This document shows, one piece after another, positions 11,434 through 26,805 of a DNA stretch of 41,971 bases (position 1 is its first letter; every line of letters begins with the position of its first letter). A model generated the notes under the pieces. The model worked only from the letters and a program-made list of their open reading frames with translations. It was not told the origin of the DNA and did not search any database. The translations under genes and the position numbers were made by a program. The DNA lies in assembly GCA_001717005.1 (NCBI GenBank), contig MAGS01000088.1, positions 11,321 to 53,291 of the forward strand, in the 5' to 3' direction. The DNA is from Candidatus Methanomethylicus mesodigestus (GTDB lineage Archaea; Thermoproteota; Methanomethylicia; Methanomethylicales; Methanomethylicaceae).

Positions 11434-11569
11434 CCCGCCCTAGCTCAGTGGTAGAGCGCCCGGCTGTAGACCGATGGTCGCGCAAGGGAATTCGCCATGG
11501 GCGGTACATGTCCTTGCGCCAGCCTGGGCAATTACCGGGTGGTCGCTGGTTCAAGTCCGGCGGGCGGGA
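11434..11569 (+). tRNA. tRNA-Tyr(GTA) with ~64-nt structured intron (about 11470..11533), followed by CCA
   Basis: C1-G72 acceptor CCCGCCC/GGGCGGG, D-arm GCTC/GAGC, anticodon stem CCCGG/CCGGG, loop CTGTAG^...^A, T-arm GCTGGTTCAAGTCCGGC, then CCA at 11570-11572. Confidence 0.88.
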
Positions 11570-11740
11570 CCACCATCTTAGCACCAACTCCATGCAGGCG
11601 CGCTGAGCCTGTCCGCCTTCTTTTGGCGAATTGAGTACTGTGCTTTATCAAAAACTTTATTAGGGCTTGTATTTTGGAGAATGGATAGCTCGATTCTGGG
11701 CATTTTGTGTTTGTTCAAAATATTTTTGGGTGGTAAAATC

Positions 11741-12115
11741 TTGGGCAAATTTGATATCCTCGAACACGACCTTGTACCGGAGTTCCGAATCCTCAACCGG
11801 GAGGAGTACCAGCAGCTCAGGAAGTCCCTCGGGATAAGGAAGGAGGACCTTCCGTGGATAAGGAACAGCGACCCCGTCTGCTTAAGGATCAAGGAGGCGC
11901 AGAAGAGCGCGCACTGCCCCAAATGCGACGGCAAGCTGGTCGAGTCGGTGGAGGAGCGGGAGTTCAAGGGGGTTACCACCCAGAAGAAGGTAATGAAATG
12001 CGAGAAGTGCGACTACTACGAGCCGGTCCTGGGGCCAGGGCAGATCCTTGAGATAACCAGGAGGAGCCAGGTCGCAGGGCACGCGGTCGCATTCAGATAC
12101 GTTGTTCCAGGGTGA
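11741..12115 (+). CDS. rpoH: DNA-directed RNA polymerase subunit H (RpoH/Rpb5 C-terminal) with zinc-ribbon insertion
   Basis: FDILEHDLVPEFRILNREEYQQLRKSLGIRKEDLPWIRNSDPV...LGPGQILEITRRSQVAGHAVAFRYVV; TTG start preceded by GGTGG; ORF also open from ATG 11681. Confidence 0.88.
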   Translation: MGKFDILEHDLVPEFRILNREEYQQLRKSLGIRKEDLPWIRNSDPVCLRIKEAQKSAHCPKCDGKLVESVEEREFKGVTTQKKVMKCEKCDYYEPVLGPGQILEITRRSQVAGHAVAFRYVVPG

Positions 12116-12120
12116 TTCCG

Positions 12121-15100
12121 ATGAGCGATATTGCAATGGACGACCGGTGGGTGCTCATCGAGTCCTTCTTCAGGGAGAAGAACTTGGTGAGGCCGCACTT
12201 GGACTCATTTGACGACTTCATAAAGAACAAGCTTCAGGAGATCGTGGACGAGCAGGGCGTCATAGAGACCGACGTCCCCGGGCTAAAGATCAAGCTCGGC
12301 ACGCTCACCATAGGGAAGCCGACGATCCACGAGGCGGACGGCTCCGAGAAGGAGATCCTGCCAATGGAGGCCAGGCAGAGGAACCTGACCTACGCGGCGA
12401 CCATGCGCCTCTCCGTCATACCCATCGTTGACGGCTACGAGGAGGACGCCATATCGGTCTACATCGGCAAGCTCCCCATAATGGTGCGGTCTTCCTACTG
12501 CGCGCTCGCCAACGCCACGAGGGAGGACCTGATAAAGGCCGGAGAGGACCCCGCAGACCCCGGAGGATACTTCATAGTCAACGGATCGGAGAGGGTCGTG
12601 GTCATCCAGGAGGACCTCGCCGTGAACAGGATCCTCGTCGACAGGATGGAGGGCGCATCCCCCGTCACGCACGTCGCCAAGGTCTTCTCAGCGACGTCGG
12701 GCTTCAGGGTGCCGGTCACCCTCGAGCGGATGAAGGACGGCAGCCTCTCGGTCACGTTCCCATCTATACCCGGCAGGGTATCCCTAGCGATACTGATGAA
12801 GGCGCTGGGCGTCCCGTCCGACAAGGACCTCGTGGAGTACGTCTCCAGCGACGCCGGCATCCAGAAGGCGCTCATCCCGACCCTAGAGAGCGGGATAGAG
12901 ATCAACGCCACCAAGGATGCCCTGGACTACATCGGCAACAGGGTTGCGATAGGCCAGACACAGGACTTCCGCATCCAGAGGGCGCTGCAGATACTGGACA
13001 AGTACCTCCTGCCGCACCTCGGCATTGAGGAGGCGGACCGGAAGAAGAAGTCGCTCTTCCTTGGTCAGATGGCCGAGAAGCTCATTGAGCTCTCGATAGG
13101 GAGGAGGGCGCCGGACGACAAGGACCACTACGCTAACAAGCGGCTCAAGCTCGCAGGCGACCTGCTCGCGAGCCTCTTCAGGGTCGCATTCAAGAGCTTC
13201 TGCAGGGACATGAAGTACCAGCTCGAGAGGGCAAGGAGCAGGAGCAGGCGCGTCTCGATAGAGACCCTGGTCAGGGCGGACGTCATAACCGAGCGCCTGA
13301 GGCACGCACTCGCCACCGGCAACTGGGTCGGGGGCAAGGCGGGTGTGAGCCAGCTCCTCGACAGGACGAACTACCTCTCGACGATAGGCCACCTGCGGAG
13401 GATCATCTCGCCGCTCAGCAGGTCGCAGCCGCACTTCGAGGCAAGGGACCTCCACTCCACACAGTGGGGCCGGCTCTGCCCGAGCGAGACCCCCGAGGGG
13501 CCCAACTGCGGCTTGGTCAAGAACCTCGCGCTGATGTCCTTCATATCGGTCGGCATGGACGAGCCAAAGCTCGTCGAGGACCTCCTCTACGAGCTCAACA
13601 CCGAGCCCATCGACTCGGCCAGGAAGAAGAACATGTCCGGCGCGAAGGTCATACTCAACGGCAGGCTCATAGGCCTCAACGACAAGCCCGAGCTGCTCGT
13701 CACAGAGGTCAAGAAGCACCGCCTGCGGAAGAGGTGGCACGAGGTCAACGTCGCCCACTACAGGCAGGGCGAGATCAACGAGGTCTACATCAACTCCGAC
13801 GCAGGCAGGGTCAGGCGCCCGCTCATAATGGTTGATGGTGGCTACCCGCTCCTCAACAAGGAGCAGATAGAGCGCCTCGTCGCGAACGAGTGGACGTGGA
13901 ACGAGCTGATCAACCAGGGCGTGATCGAGTACCTCGACGCAGAGGAGGAGGAGAACGCCTACATCGCCCTCGACTACAAGAACCTGGACAAGTCGAGGAC
14001 GCACCTCGAGATCGTGGCCTCCACGATCCTGGGGATAAGCGCCTCCATGATCCCGTTCCTCGAGGCGAACCAGTCGCCCAGGAACACCTACGGGTCCGCG
14101 ATGATCAAGCAGTCGCTGGGCTTCTACACCGCAAACTTCTCCAAGCGCCTGGACACCAGGGGCCACCTGCTCCACTACCCGCAGAGGCCAATGGTCAACA
14201 CCAGGTCGGCCAAGACGCTCGAGCTGGACAGGCGCCCCGCCGGGCAGAACTTCGTCGTCGCGATACTCTCGTACTCGGGCTACAACATCGAAGATGCCCT
14301 GATCATGAACAAGTCCTCGGTCGAGCGCGGCCTCGCCAGGTCGTCCTTCTTCAGGTGCTACGAGACTGAGGAGCGCAGGTACCCCGGAGGTCAGGAGGAC
14401 AAGATCGAGGTCCCCTCGCCCACAGTCAGGGGATACCGGACGCCCGAGTCCTACCAGTACCTGGGCGACGACGGGATAATCGAGCCCGAGTCGAGCATGA
14501 AGGGCGGTGATGTCCTCGTCGGAAAGACAAGCCCGCCCCGCTTCCTCGAGGAGTACAAGGAGTTCGAGCAGGCAGGCCCCCAGAGGAGGGAGACCTCCGT
14601 CTCGATGAGGGCCGGGGAGGACGGCGTTGTCGACCTCGTCATAGTCACTGAGACATCGGACGGCAACAAGCTCGTCAAGATACGCGTAAGGAATGAGAGG
14701 ATACCTGAGCTGGGGGACAAGTTCGCCTCCAGGCACGGGCAGAAGGGCGTCGTCGGGATGCTGGTCCCGCAGTACGACATGCCGTGCACCGAGGACGGCG
14801 TCGTCCCGGACCTGATAATCAACCCGCACGCCATCCCCTCAAGGATGACCCTCGGACAGCTGCTTGAGCTGCTGGGCGGCAAGGCGCACGCCGCATCGGG
14901 CAAGCCGATGGACGGGACCGCCTTCTGCGGCGACAGCGAGAAGACCATGCGAGACCTGCTTAAGGCGCGCGGCCTCAAGCCGACCGGCAAGGAGGTCCTC
15001 TACGACGGCAGGACAGGGCGGGTCCTCGAGGCCGATGTCTACATAGGCATAGCCTACTACCTCAAGCTCCACCACATGGTTGCAGACAAGATGCATGCGC

Positions 15101-15450
15101 GCGCACGCGGCCCGGTCCAGATCCTCACGAGGCAGCCCACGGAGGGGCGCGCCAGGGAGGGAGGGCTGAGGTTCGGTGAGATGGAGCGCGACTGCCTCAT
15201 AGGCCACGGCGCTGCGATGCTGCTCAAGGAGAGGCTCCTGGAAGAGTCCGACCGCACAGTCGTCAACATCTGCGAGGACTGCGGCCTGATCTCCTACTAC
15301 GACCGGACGAAGGACAAGAACATCTGCCCGATATGCGGCGAGAAGGCGAAGACGACTGCCGTCGTCATGTCCTATGCCTTCAAGCTGCTGCTGCAGGAGC
15401 TCATGAGCCTTGGTATAGCCCCGAGGCTGAAACTACAGGAGAGGGTTTGA
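12121..15450 (+). CDS. rpoB: DNA-directed RNA polymerase subunit B (unsplit, ~1109 aa)
   Basis: [61 protein letters not shown]-terminal zinc ribbon CEDCG...CPICG. Confidence 0.98.
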
Positions 15451-15454
15451 AGAC

Positions 15455-18109
15455 ATGTCGCTATCAGAACTCGCAAAGTCAATACACGCCATCAAGTTCG
15501 GCCTGCTCTCACCCGAGAGCATAAGGAAGATGTCCGTGGTGAACATCAAGGCCGCGGACACATACGACGAGGACGGCGTCCCGATCGACACCGGGCTGAT
15601 GGACCGGAAGCTCGGAACCATAGAGCCAGGCCAGAAGTGCCAGACGTGCGGAAACCGCGTGGGCCAGTGCCCGGGGCACTTCGGCCACATCGAGCTCGCA
15701 CGGCCTGTCGTCCACCCCGGCTTCGCCAAGCTCGTCTACCTCATGCTCAGGGCGACCTGCTGGAACTGCGGCAGGCTGCTCCTCTCTGAGGAGGACTACA
15801 GGAAGTACTCGATCCGGATGGAGAAGTACAAGAAGAAGTGGCCGCAGTTCAGGTTCAAGCTCTCGGACCAGATCGTCAAGAAGGCGGTCAAGATCAACGA
15901 GTGCCCGTACTGCCACGAGGGCCAGTTCAAGATAAAGTTCGAGAAGCCGACCGGATACTCCGAGGAGCGCAAGGAGGGCCCAAAGAGGATCTATTCCAAC
16001 GAGATCAGGGGCCGCCTGGAGAGGGTCACCGAGGCCGACGCCGCCCTCATGGGGCTGGACCCGTCGCTCGCAAGGCCTGAGTGGATGCTCCTGACCGTGC
16101 TGCCGGTGCCGCCATCAACGGTCCGGCCGTCGATCACCCTCGAGTCCGGCGTCAGGTCGGAGGACGACCTCACGCACAAGCTCGTGGACATAATCAGGAT
16201 CAACGAGAGGCTCAGCGAGAACATCGACGCTGGAGCGCCCCAGCTGATCATAGAGGACCTCTGGGAGCTGCTGCAGTACCACGTGACGACCTACTTCGAC
16301 AACGAGACCTCAGGCATACCGCCGGCAAGGCACAGGTCCGGCAGGCCGCTGAGGACGATCGCCCAGCGCCTCAAGGGAAAGGAGGGCCGCTTCAGGTCCA
16401 ACCTCTCAGGGAAGCGCGTCGACTTCTCGGCGAGGACCGTGATCTCGCCCGACCCCATAATCAGCATGAACGAGGTCGGCGTCCCTGTCGACATCGCCAA
16501 GCAGCTGACCATCCCTGAGCGGATCAACAAGTACAACCTCGAGGAGCTCAAGACGATAATCACCAACGGGCCGGATGCCCACCCGGGCGCGAACTACATC
16601 ATCCGGCCGGACGGCAGGAGGATCGACCTCCGGTTCCCCAAGGACCGCAAGATCATCGCCGACGCGGTGGAGGTTGGGTACGTCATCGAGCGGCACCTAA
16701 AGGACGGGGACGTCGTGCTCTTCAACAGGCAGCCCTCGCTCCACAGGATGTCGATAATGGCCCACAAGGTAAGGGTCCTGCCGTACAAGACCTTCAGGCT
16801 CAACCTCTGCGTCTGTCCCCCCTACAACGCGGACTTCGACGGAGACGAGATGAACCTGCACGTGCCGCAGAGCGAGGAGGCAAGGGCAGAGGCACTTGTG
16901 CTGATGCTGGTGCAGGAGCAGATACTCTCGCCCAGGTACGGCGGCCCCATCATGGGAGGGATTCAGGACTACATCTCAGGGGCCTACATGCTCACGCGGA
17001 AGAGCACCATGCTCACGAGGGCCGACGCGAGCCAGCTCCTGGCCAGCGCAGGCTACAGGGGCGAGCTGCCTGCGCCCGCGGTGAAGTCCCCCGAGGAGCT
17101 CTGGACGGGCAAGCAGCTGGCAAGCCTCTTCTTCCCGAAGGGCTTCAACTACACGCTCAAGTCCAACATCTGCCAGAAGTGCGACGTCTGCAAGCAGGAG
17201 GACTGCGAGAACGACGCCTTCGTCGTGATAAAGGACGGCAAGCTGGTCTCCGGGGTCATCGACAAGAAGTCTATCGGCGCGCAGCAGCCCGAGTCCGTCC
17301 TGCACAGGCTGGTGAAGGACTACGGGACAGACATGGGCAGGTACTACATCGACAAGGCATTCAAGCTCTTTCTCGCCTTCATCGATAGCCGCGGCCTCAC
17401 GATAGGGCTCGACGACGAGGAGCTCCCAGAGAACGGGCGGCTCAAGGTCAAGGCGGACATACACCACGCAGAGGAGGAGGTCTCGAAGAACATCAATGCC
17501 TACAACGAGGGGCTTCTCGAGAGGCTCCCCGGCAGGACGCTTGAGGAGACGCTTGAGACGCAGATCATGCAGATCCTTGAGAAGGCCAGGGAGGACTCGG
17601 GCAAGACCGCCAAGAAGTACCTCAAGGAGGGCAACACCGCGCTGCTGATGGCGAACACCGGCGCAAGGGGCAGCCTCATGAACCTCGCGCACATGGTCGC
17701 GTGCGTCGGGCAGCAGGCAGTCCGAGGCGAGAGGATCTCGAGGGGATACCAGAACCGCACGCTCCCCCACTTCAAACCGGGAGACCTAGGCGCCGAGGCG
17801 CACGGCTTCGTGTACAGCAGCTACAAGGACAAGCTCAACCCCATCGAGTTCTTCTTCCACGCCATGGGCGGGAGGGAAGGCCTCGTCGATACTGCGGTCA
17901 GGACGAGCCAGAGCGGCTACATGCAGCGCAGGCTCATCAATGCCCTGCAGGACGTCAGGGTGGAGTACGACTGGACGGTGAGGGCCACCGACGGCTCAAT
18001 CATCCAGTACATATATGGCGACGACGGCATCGACCCTGCGAAGAGCGATCACGGGGAGGCTGTCAACATCGACAAGATCATCGAGAGGGTGAAGGCAGGA
18101 GGCAAGTGA
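15455..18109 (+). CDS. rpoA1: DNA-directed RNA polymerase subunit A'
   Basis: [23 protein letters not shown] catalytic motif; [20 protein letters not shown]. Confidence 0.98.
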
Positions 18110-18110
18110 A

Positions 18111-19553
18111 ATGGCCAAGAAGAAACAACCAACCCCCGCGGAAGCAGAGGTCGAGGAGACCGTTGCAGCCAAGGTGGGCGCTAAGACCGGCGAGAAGGCC
18201 GCAAAGGCACCAAAGACCGCAGCCAAGGCAAAGGGCAAGCCCAAGGGGGCTGCCGCCAAGCCGAAGGCTGCCGCAGCGACCGCCCCAAAGGCGAAGAAGC
18301 CGAAGGCAGCGGCCGCAGAGGTGGACGAGGAGGACGCCGCCGCAGAAGAACCGATGCGGGCGAAGAAGCGAGAACCCGAGGCGCCCCTGCCGGAGCTGCC
18401 GCTCGTTGACCAGGTCCTGGCGAAGCATGACCGGCGCCTGCCGGAGAAGCTGGTGAGCCGGCTCAAGACCAAGCTGGTGCCGCTCAAGTCGAAGCTTAGC
18501 GAGGAGCAGATGGCGAAGGTGGTCGAGGAGACCTACCGCTCCTACATCAAGGCACTCATCGAGCCTGGCGAGGCCGCCGGCACGGTCGCAGCACAGTCTG
18601 TCGGCGAGCCTGGCACCCAGATGACGCTGAGGACCTTCCACTACGCAGGTGTGAGGGAGCTGAACGTCACGCTCGGCCTCCCGAGGCTGATCGAGATCGT
18701 GGACGCCAGGAGGGTCCCGTCGACCCCAACCATGACCATCTTCCTTGACGACGAGCACAAGCACGACCTCAGCAAGGCCAAGGGCATCGCGGCAAACATC
18801 GAGACCGTCACGGTCGAGAACGTAGCGAAGAGCATAGGCTACGAGATGCTCAACAACTTCACCATAGAGGTCGACGCCGAGATGTGCGAGGACAAGATGA
18901 TAGACCTCAACTACATCGCGAAGTCGATCGAGAAGCTCAAGATACCCGGCAGGGTCTCCGTAGAGGGGAACAACATCACCGTGGAGCCGGAGACGACCGA
19001 CCGGGACAAGATAAAGCGCATCCGGGAGCGGATCATGGACCTCCGCCTGAAGGGCATAAAGAGCATCAAGAGGGTCGTGATCGAGAAGAAGGGCGACGAA
19101 TATCTGCTCAGGACCGACGGCTCCAACCTGGCCCAGGTGATCGAGAACGTCAAGGGCATCGACAAGACGAAGGTCTACACCAATAACGTGTCCGAGATCG
19201 CAGAGGTCTTGGGGATAGAGGCCGCGAGGAGTGCGATAATCCGCGAGGCGTTTGAGGTCCTCGACCAGCAGGGGCTAGATGTGGACGTCAGGCACGTGAT
19301 CCTGGTGGCAGACCTCATGACGTCGACCGGGAAGATCCGGCAGATCGGCAGGCACGGCGTGAGCGGCGAGAAGTCGAGCGTCCTCGCCAGGGCCGCATTC
19401 GAGGTGACCGTAAAGCATTTATTGGATGCGGCTGCACATGGAGAGGAAGACTGCTTGGAGGGAGTTACGGAGAACGTAATTGTGGGTCAGCCAATCCCGC
19501 TGGGCACCGGAATCGTCGAATTGTTTATGAGATTCTCTAAAGAAGGTACATGA
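18111..19553 (+). CDS. rpoA2: DNA-directed RNA polymerase subunit A'' with long Lys/Ala/Pro-rich N-terminal tail
   Basis: IEPGEAAGTVAAQSVGEPGTQMTLRTFHYAGV; directly follows rpoA1. Confidence 0.97.
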   Translation: MAKKKQPTPAEAEVEETVAAKVGAKTGEKAAKAPKTAAKAKGKPKGAAAKPKAAAATAPKAKKPKAAAAEVDEEDAAAEEPMRAKKREPEAPLPELPLVDQVLAKHDRRLPEKLVSRLKTKLVPLKSKLSEEQMAKVVEETYRSYIKALIEPGEAAGTVAAQSVGEPGTQMTLRTFHYAGVRELNVTLGLPRLIEIVDARRVPSTPTMTIFLDDEHKHDLSKAKGIAANIETVTVENVAKSIGYEMLNNFTIEVDAEMCEDKMIDLNYIAKSIEKLKIPGRVSVEGNNITVEPETTDRDKIKRIRERIMDLRLKGIKSIKRVVIEKKGDEYLLRTDGSNLAQVIENVKGIDKTKVYTNNVSEIAEVLGIEAARSAIIREAFEVLDQQGLDVDVRHVILVADLMTSTGKIRQIGRHGVSGEKSSVLARAAFEVTVKHLLDAAAHGEEDCLEGVTENVIVGQPIPLGTGIVELFMRFSKEGT

Positions 19554-26696: not shown

Positions 26697-26805
26697 CGCC
26701 GGGGAAGGGATTCGAACCCTTGCTCCACCGAAATGGAACCGGCTTGCCTGTCCCATTCACTATAAGATCTCGAGGCCGGCGCTTTAACCGCTCAGCCACC
26801 CCGGC
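26697..26805 (-). tRNA. tRNA-Ser(CGA) with ~24-nt intron (26745..26768)
   Basis: Acceptor GCCGGGG/CCCCGGC, class II variable arm TCCA-TTTCGG-TGGA, T-arm AAGGGTTCGAATCCCTT, anticodon stem CCGGC/GCCGG, loop CTCGAG^...^A. Confidence 0.87.

Follow-up and report, generated by a model that had tools for sequence, protein, structure and literature searches.

RpoH, or Rpo5, is among the smallest and most conserved subunits of archaeal and eukaryotic RNA polymerases. Reviews and structural papers describe archaeal RpoH as consisting of the assembly domain and nothing more (PMC2675907, PMC3906176, PMC6690254). According to Korkhin et al., different lineages fill the groove next to archaeal Rpo5 with different elements, namely Rpo13 in the Sulfolobales, the Rpb5 jaw (in part) in eukaryotes and an insert of beta-prime in Thermus (PMC2675907), and by analogy these occupants offer a precedent for lineage-specific modules next to the subunit. 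In the window, a stretch of 41,971 nucleotides from a Methanomethylicus MAG (G000; 1.43 Mb in 88 contigs, 89.6% complete), we found an RpoH whose assembly domain is split by a 45-residue module with four cysteines, predicted to form a zinc ribbon. By analogy, Rpo13 of the Sulfolobales and Desulfurococcales is likewise a lineage-specific extra module beside Rpo5, but it is a separate helix-turn-helix subunit (PMC2675907), whereas the Methanomethylicus module is a putative in-chain ribbon. The jaw domain of eukaryotic Rpb5 is likewise an additional module on the same subunit, but it is N-terminal, restriction-endonuclease-like and ~130-140 residues long, and the putative Methanomethylicus ribbon is internal.

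The insert is real, recent and constrained and, to our knowledge, undescribed. The preliminary description knew of no RpoH of this kind, and we found no account of a zinc insert in Rpo5 in the open-access literature (subscription papers lay outside the search); a survey published in 2026 on the small subunits of archaeal polymerases, covering Rpo6 and Rpo8, does not mention zinc (PMC13257274). With an uninserted congener as a natural control, the effect of an addition to the lower jaw is directly testable.

An RpoH split by a four-cysteine insert

The rpoH/rpo5 gene (11741-12115, + strand) starts with TTG and encodes 124 amino acids plus the stop. The open frame containing it (11681-12115) holds both halves of the assembly domain (Rpb5_C) and the motif CPKC-x24-CEKC exactly as quoted in the preliminary description, which had read the subunit as interrupted by a four-Cys module. 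PF01191 (Rpb5_C) matches in two pieces, profile positions 1-47 and 49-73, with a whole-protein E-value of 4.6e-20 and a score of 71.6 bits against the curated cut-off of 23.5, as expected for a member of the RpoH/Rpo5 family. The usual domain is contiguous and ~75-80 aa long; the 45-aa split is a departure of one variant, and the protein is still a member of the family. No other Rpb5_C gene in the genome scores above the cut-off and, being single copy, this RpoH is likely to assemble into RNA polymerase.

The N-terminal part (11741-11899, +) stops where the DPV helix ends; the C-terminal part (12035-12112, +) reads PGQILEITRRS...FRYVVPG. Alignment with uninserted relatives identifies the extra residues between them as 54-98, an in-frame segment of 45 aa (11900-12034, +) that follows the DPV helix and precedes the PGQ strand, with boundaries uncertain by ~3 residues or codons; the range originally proposed, 11891-12030 with ~45 aa, covers this insert within that uncertainty. 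The cysteines are residues 59, 62, 87 and 90, in a C-x2-C-x24-C-x2-C arrangement. With archaeal RpoH/Rpo5 in general (PF01191, PRK09570) the protein shares both domain halves, operon position, single copy and predicted core fold, and it differs in the 45-aa insert with four cysteines placed after the DPV helix; in addition, GA(K/R), elsewhere nearly invariant, and the Asp that follows PG have been lost. It has no N-terminal jaw domain, the assembly-domain match starting at residue 4. The TTG at 11741 is most likely the true start because the 60 nt before it behave as noncoding: their substitutions between the window and its closest relative (G001) show neither coding constraint nor third-position bias. 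On the same ground an N-terminal extension beginning MDSSILG... was rejected as coding.

The gene order, rpoH-rpoB-rpoA1-rpoA2-rpl30e-nusA with rpoH first, is typical of RpoH/Rpo5. The start of rpoB (12112-15450, +; unsplit, 1112 aa) overlaps the rpoH stop, and rpoA1 (Rpo1N; 15455-18109, +) and rpoA2 (Rpo1C; 18111-19553, +) follow. RpoA2 has an N-terminal, low-complexity Lys/Ala-rich tail of ~95 aa (18111-18400); G009 apart, the other genomes of the family that were examined have similar tails. A tRNA gene, probably Tyr-GUA, lies 5' of rpoH (11434-11569, +; Rfam RF00005, 52.9 bits), its length of 136 bp indicating an intron. Rfam detected a second tRNA gene at 26697-26805 (-); ARAGORN missed both.

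Distribution, age and constraint of the insert

The same insert is found in a second MAG, Ca. Methanomethylicus oleisabuli V3 (G001), with 93% identity. Both species are related methane-making archaea of the genus Methanomethylicus (Thermoproteota), and both CxxC knuckles expected of a zinc ribbon are conserved, all four cysteines being identical in the two. A third congener (G003) has an ordinary 79-aa RpoH with no insert; rpoH was not found in the fourth genome of the genus (G002), which is 59% complete. Across the class, the domain was contiguous in 34 of 36 matching genomes, the exceptions being the two carriers, so close relatives do not have the insert as a standard feature. At the phylum level, 377 of 398 sampled Thermoproteota genomes have an RpoH match, and only four of these (G000, G001, G397 and G370) lack one of full-length quality. 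Contiguity was read among the matches listed, to an E-value of ~1.6e-30, and inferred from the best E-value for weaker genomes; within these terms, the profile search gave a two-piece match with an insert in the two Methanomethylicus species only. In G397 the two RpoH pieces abut, marking a frame break, and G370 has a short fragment. No other insert in the C-terminal domain was seen among the intact RpoH of the 398-genome sample.

A search with the insert alone gave strong matches in the two carriers only among the 398 genomes. A separate G040 match over part of the insert range belongs to a frame-broken second Rpo5 copy. Among 12 named loci of the GTDB collection, 1 carried the insert; archaea beyond Thermoproteota were covered by this named-genome scan alone, which was built on the RpoH family of the window. 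As the insert is missing in the third congener, in the rest of the class and in the intact RpoH of the phylum sample, we consider it a recent gain, and the distribution places it in the common ancestor of the two Methanomethylicus species, after the third had split off. The RpoB identities to the window species, 94.9% for G001 (gap-free), 85.9% for G003 (over 220 aa) and 81.9% for G004, are consistent with a single recent gain.

Between the two carriers, the insert shows 12 substitutions in 45 codons, 9 of which fall on the third codon position (binomial P 0.0006 versus neutral). Three amino acids differ and none of the changes affects a cysteine. The resulting dN of 0.03 and dS of 0.40 resemble those of the whole rpoH gene (0.044 and 0.475) and of rpoB (0.028 and 0.486). 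The insert is thus kept under purifying selection, which may merely preserve its folding. The recurrence in a second MAG with 4/4 cysteines and third-position-biased substitutions means that the insert is neither chance nor an assembly error.

A putative zinc ribbon on the lower jaw

In an AlphaFold2 model built on a 29-sequence alignment (mean pLDDT 85.3, insert blocks 80-89), the insert forms a beta-ribbon with strands at residues 65-75, 78-87 and 93-95, and the DPV helix is extended to residue 56. Foldseek aligned the core with archaeal Rpo5 chains at a target-normalised TM of ~0.78-0.83. An intact core carrying an ordered ribbon is plausible, and is put no more strongly because only two sequences in the alignment bear the insert, leaving almost no covariation behind the ribbon. 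Of the zinc ribbon in the preliminary description, the four-cysteine module is borne out and an ordered ribbon is predicted from two insert sequences; zinc binding itself is putative.

The spacing C-x2-C-x24-C-x2-C is that of the TFIIS C-terminal ribbon. Like the TFIIS/TFS and Rpb9 zinc ribbons (PF01096, PF02150), the insert is predicted to be a three-stranded ribbon, presumably lacking the catalytic acidic tip of TFIIS/TFS-type ribbons. It had no match to PF01096 at E<=10, and its match to PF02150 (E 0.012) fell under the cut-off and does not place it in these families. No family or solved structure in Pfam, NCBIfam or the PDB matched above cut-off. A search for a donor in the same genome, those three collections and the 398 Thermoproteota genomes gave only marginal ribbon-to-ribbon resemblances. 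A plasmid collection gave no match. TFS was rejected as a donor, since an intact TFS is present elsewhere in the genome and the resemblance is confined to the cysteines. Single-ribbon proteins of 72 aa in family f53 of the Thermoproteota (L145, L146) have the same spacing and 32-35% identity to the insert; unlike it they stand alone, and the match is marginal (E 7e-5, one genome among 398).

Aligned by hand with the RpoH of S. shibatae, the insert lies between K58 and P59 and ends six residues before the equivalent of R64. In S. shibatae, R64 is within 4 A of Rpo6 D12, and the strand that follows the insertion point faces Rpo6 in Sulfolobus (PMC3906176). The equivalent residue is Glu in the window species and Lys in G001 and, judging from the alignment, this salt-bridge contact with Rpo6 is not conserved between the two. 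The Rpo6 of both carriers (L084 and L081) has IATNEL for IAEEEL and LPNGKH for LPDGRH, changes not seen in G003 (L083) or the other family members checked; these could be co-changes with the insert or plain branch history, the two being confounded. The idea that the insert compensates for a missing Rpo8 was discarded, as PF16992 was found in no searched family member, with or without the insert, an absence that is weak evidence given the fast divergence of Rpo8.

We propose that the insert is a zinc ribbon, which would be held rigidly between the extended DPV helix and the PGQ strand and would leave the RpoH assembly fold intact. Less certainly, the ribbon may act as a docking or jaw-extending module added to the lower jaw, with Rpo6/Rpo1C or a transcription factor, not DNA, as its partner; it would be a local analogue of Rpo13 and of the Rpb5 jaw domain. 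To this explanation as a whole, of a sole RpoH with a recent, constrained insert forming a zinc ribbon in such a role, we give a probability of about 0.5.

The most serious alternative is that the insert is a folded, inconsequential decoration of a surface loop, on which selection acts only to prevent misfolding. Its presence in two species only, with no donor or conserved partner identified, fits such a history, and since the predicted core still folds, the loop that leads from the DPV helix into the next strand could plausibly accept an insertion; dN/dS is nevertheless low across the entire insert, and this highly conserved subunit shows no other C-terminal-domain insert in the phylum-wide sample, leaving a tolerated insertion possible yet short of probable. 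The preliminary description suggested that the added module could contact DNA or a factor. On the DNA reading, the ribbon would extend to downstream DNA in the manner of the Rpb5 jaw of eukaryotes or the Rpo13 tail. Rpo5 does border the downstream DNA entry channel, where related modules touch DNA (PMC2675907, PMC6690254), but the adjoining strand faces Rpo6 in Sulfolobus and the insert is near neutral, with 9 Lys/Arg against 8 Asp/Glu (net about +1), and we consider DNA contact unlikely. Because of this charge and of the adjacent strand bearing the equivalent of a residue that touches Rpo6, we favour, with moderate confidence, a module that faces protein, for docking or to extend the jaw, rather than one that binds DNA. 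Removal of the insert before the subunit works, as an mRNA intron or a protein splicing element, would suit so sharp a break, in frame, within a conserved domain, and some archaeal mRNA introns exist; a segment of 45 residues is far too short for an intein, however, and amino-acid-level constraint with third-position substitutions, conserved cysteines and a predicted fold within the protein make removal very improbable. Equally improbable is an assembly or binning artefact, for although both carriers are MAGs, they have the same insert in the same operon at a synonymous divergence of ~0.4-0.5.

Other additions to Rpo5 in Thermoproteota

Published accounts, reviews included, give archaeal RpoH as lacking a jaw domain (PMC2675907, PMC6690254). 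In many Thermoproteota we observed a longer Rpo5 (~180-200 aa) that has gained an additional domain at its N-terminus, in GTDB families f10, f19, f28, f32, f39 and f41 (loci L041, L093-L103, L105-L107 and L113-L123; genomes G040, G049, G070, G084, G091, G126, G171, G230, G265, G288 and others). Single sequences of this domain matched Mrr_cat at E-values of 1e-6 to 1e-9 and NA-iREase1 at 7e-4 to 2e-10. A profile of the domain searched against the whole PDB set hit, at E<=1, only eukaryotic Rpb5 chains (best 2.4e-4), and the full-length two-domain profile aligned through eukaryotic Rpb5 (1.3e-33), the T-Q-S/A-A-K motif of the long Rpo5 aligning with the TPSA motif of Rpb5. An AlphaFold2 model of the two-domain form matched eukaryotic Rpb5 at 2e-12 with a low global TM, presumably due to a differing domain orientation. 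Profile and model alike suggest a jaw-like domain resembling that of eukaryotic Rpb5, and the two-domain Rpo5 bears on the origin of the eukaryotic jaw.

One long Rpo5, in G171 (L096:92-748, -), has an in-frame insert of 31 aa with the pattern CEHC-x13-CPKC inside the jaw-like domain. The sister genome G091 (L095) lacks it, with flanks 96% and 92% identical to those of G171, and it is missing in the other members of the family read, so that it is known from one MAG. No strong donor candidate was found in G171 or three relatives. It makes a second ribbon-type insertion in archaeal Rpo5, independent of that in Methanomethylicus. Counting the Methanomethylicus assembly-domain ribbon, the Mrr-type jaw-like domain elsewhere in Thermoproteota and the ribbon inside one such jaw, we tentatively suggest, as a view that may well prove wrong, that Rpo5 is a recurrent grafting site of archaeal polymerases, to which separate lineages have independently attached modules that adjust the lower jaw or bring in factors particular to the lineage. 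Second copies of the long Rpo5 occur in G040 (C11; L037:2362-2930), G408 (C15 and C60) and G406 (C1), the copy in G040 being broken by frame changes.
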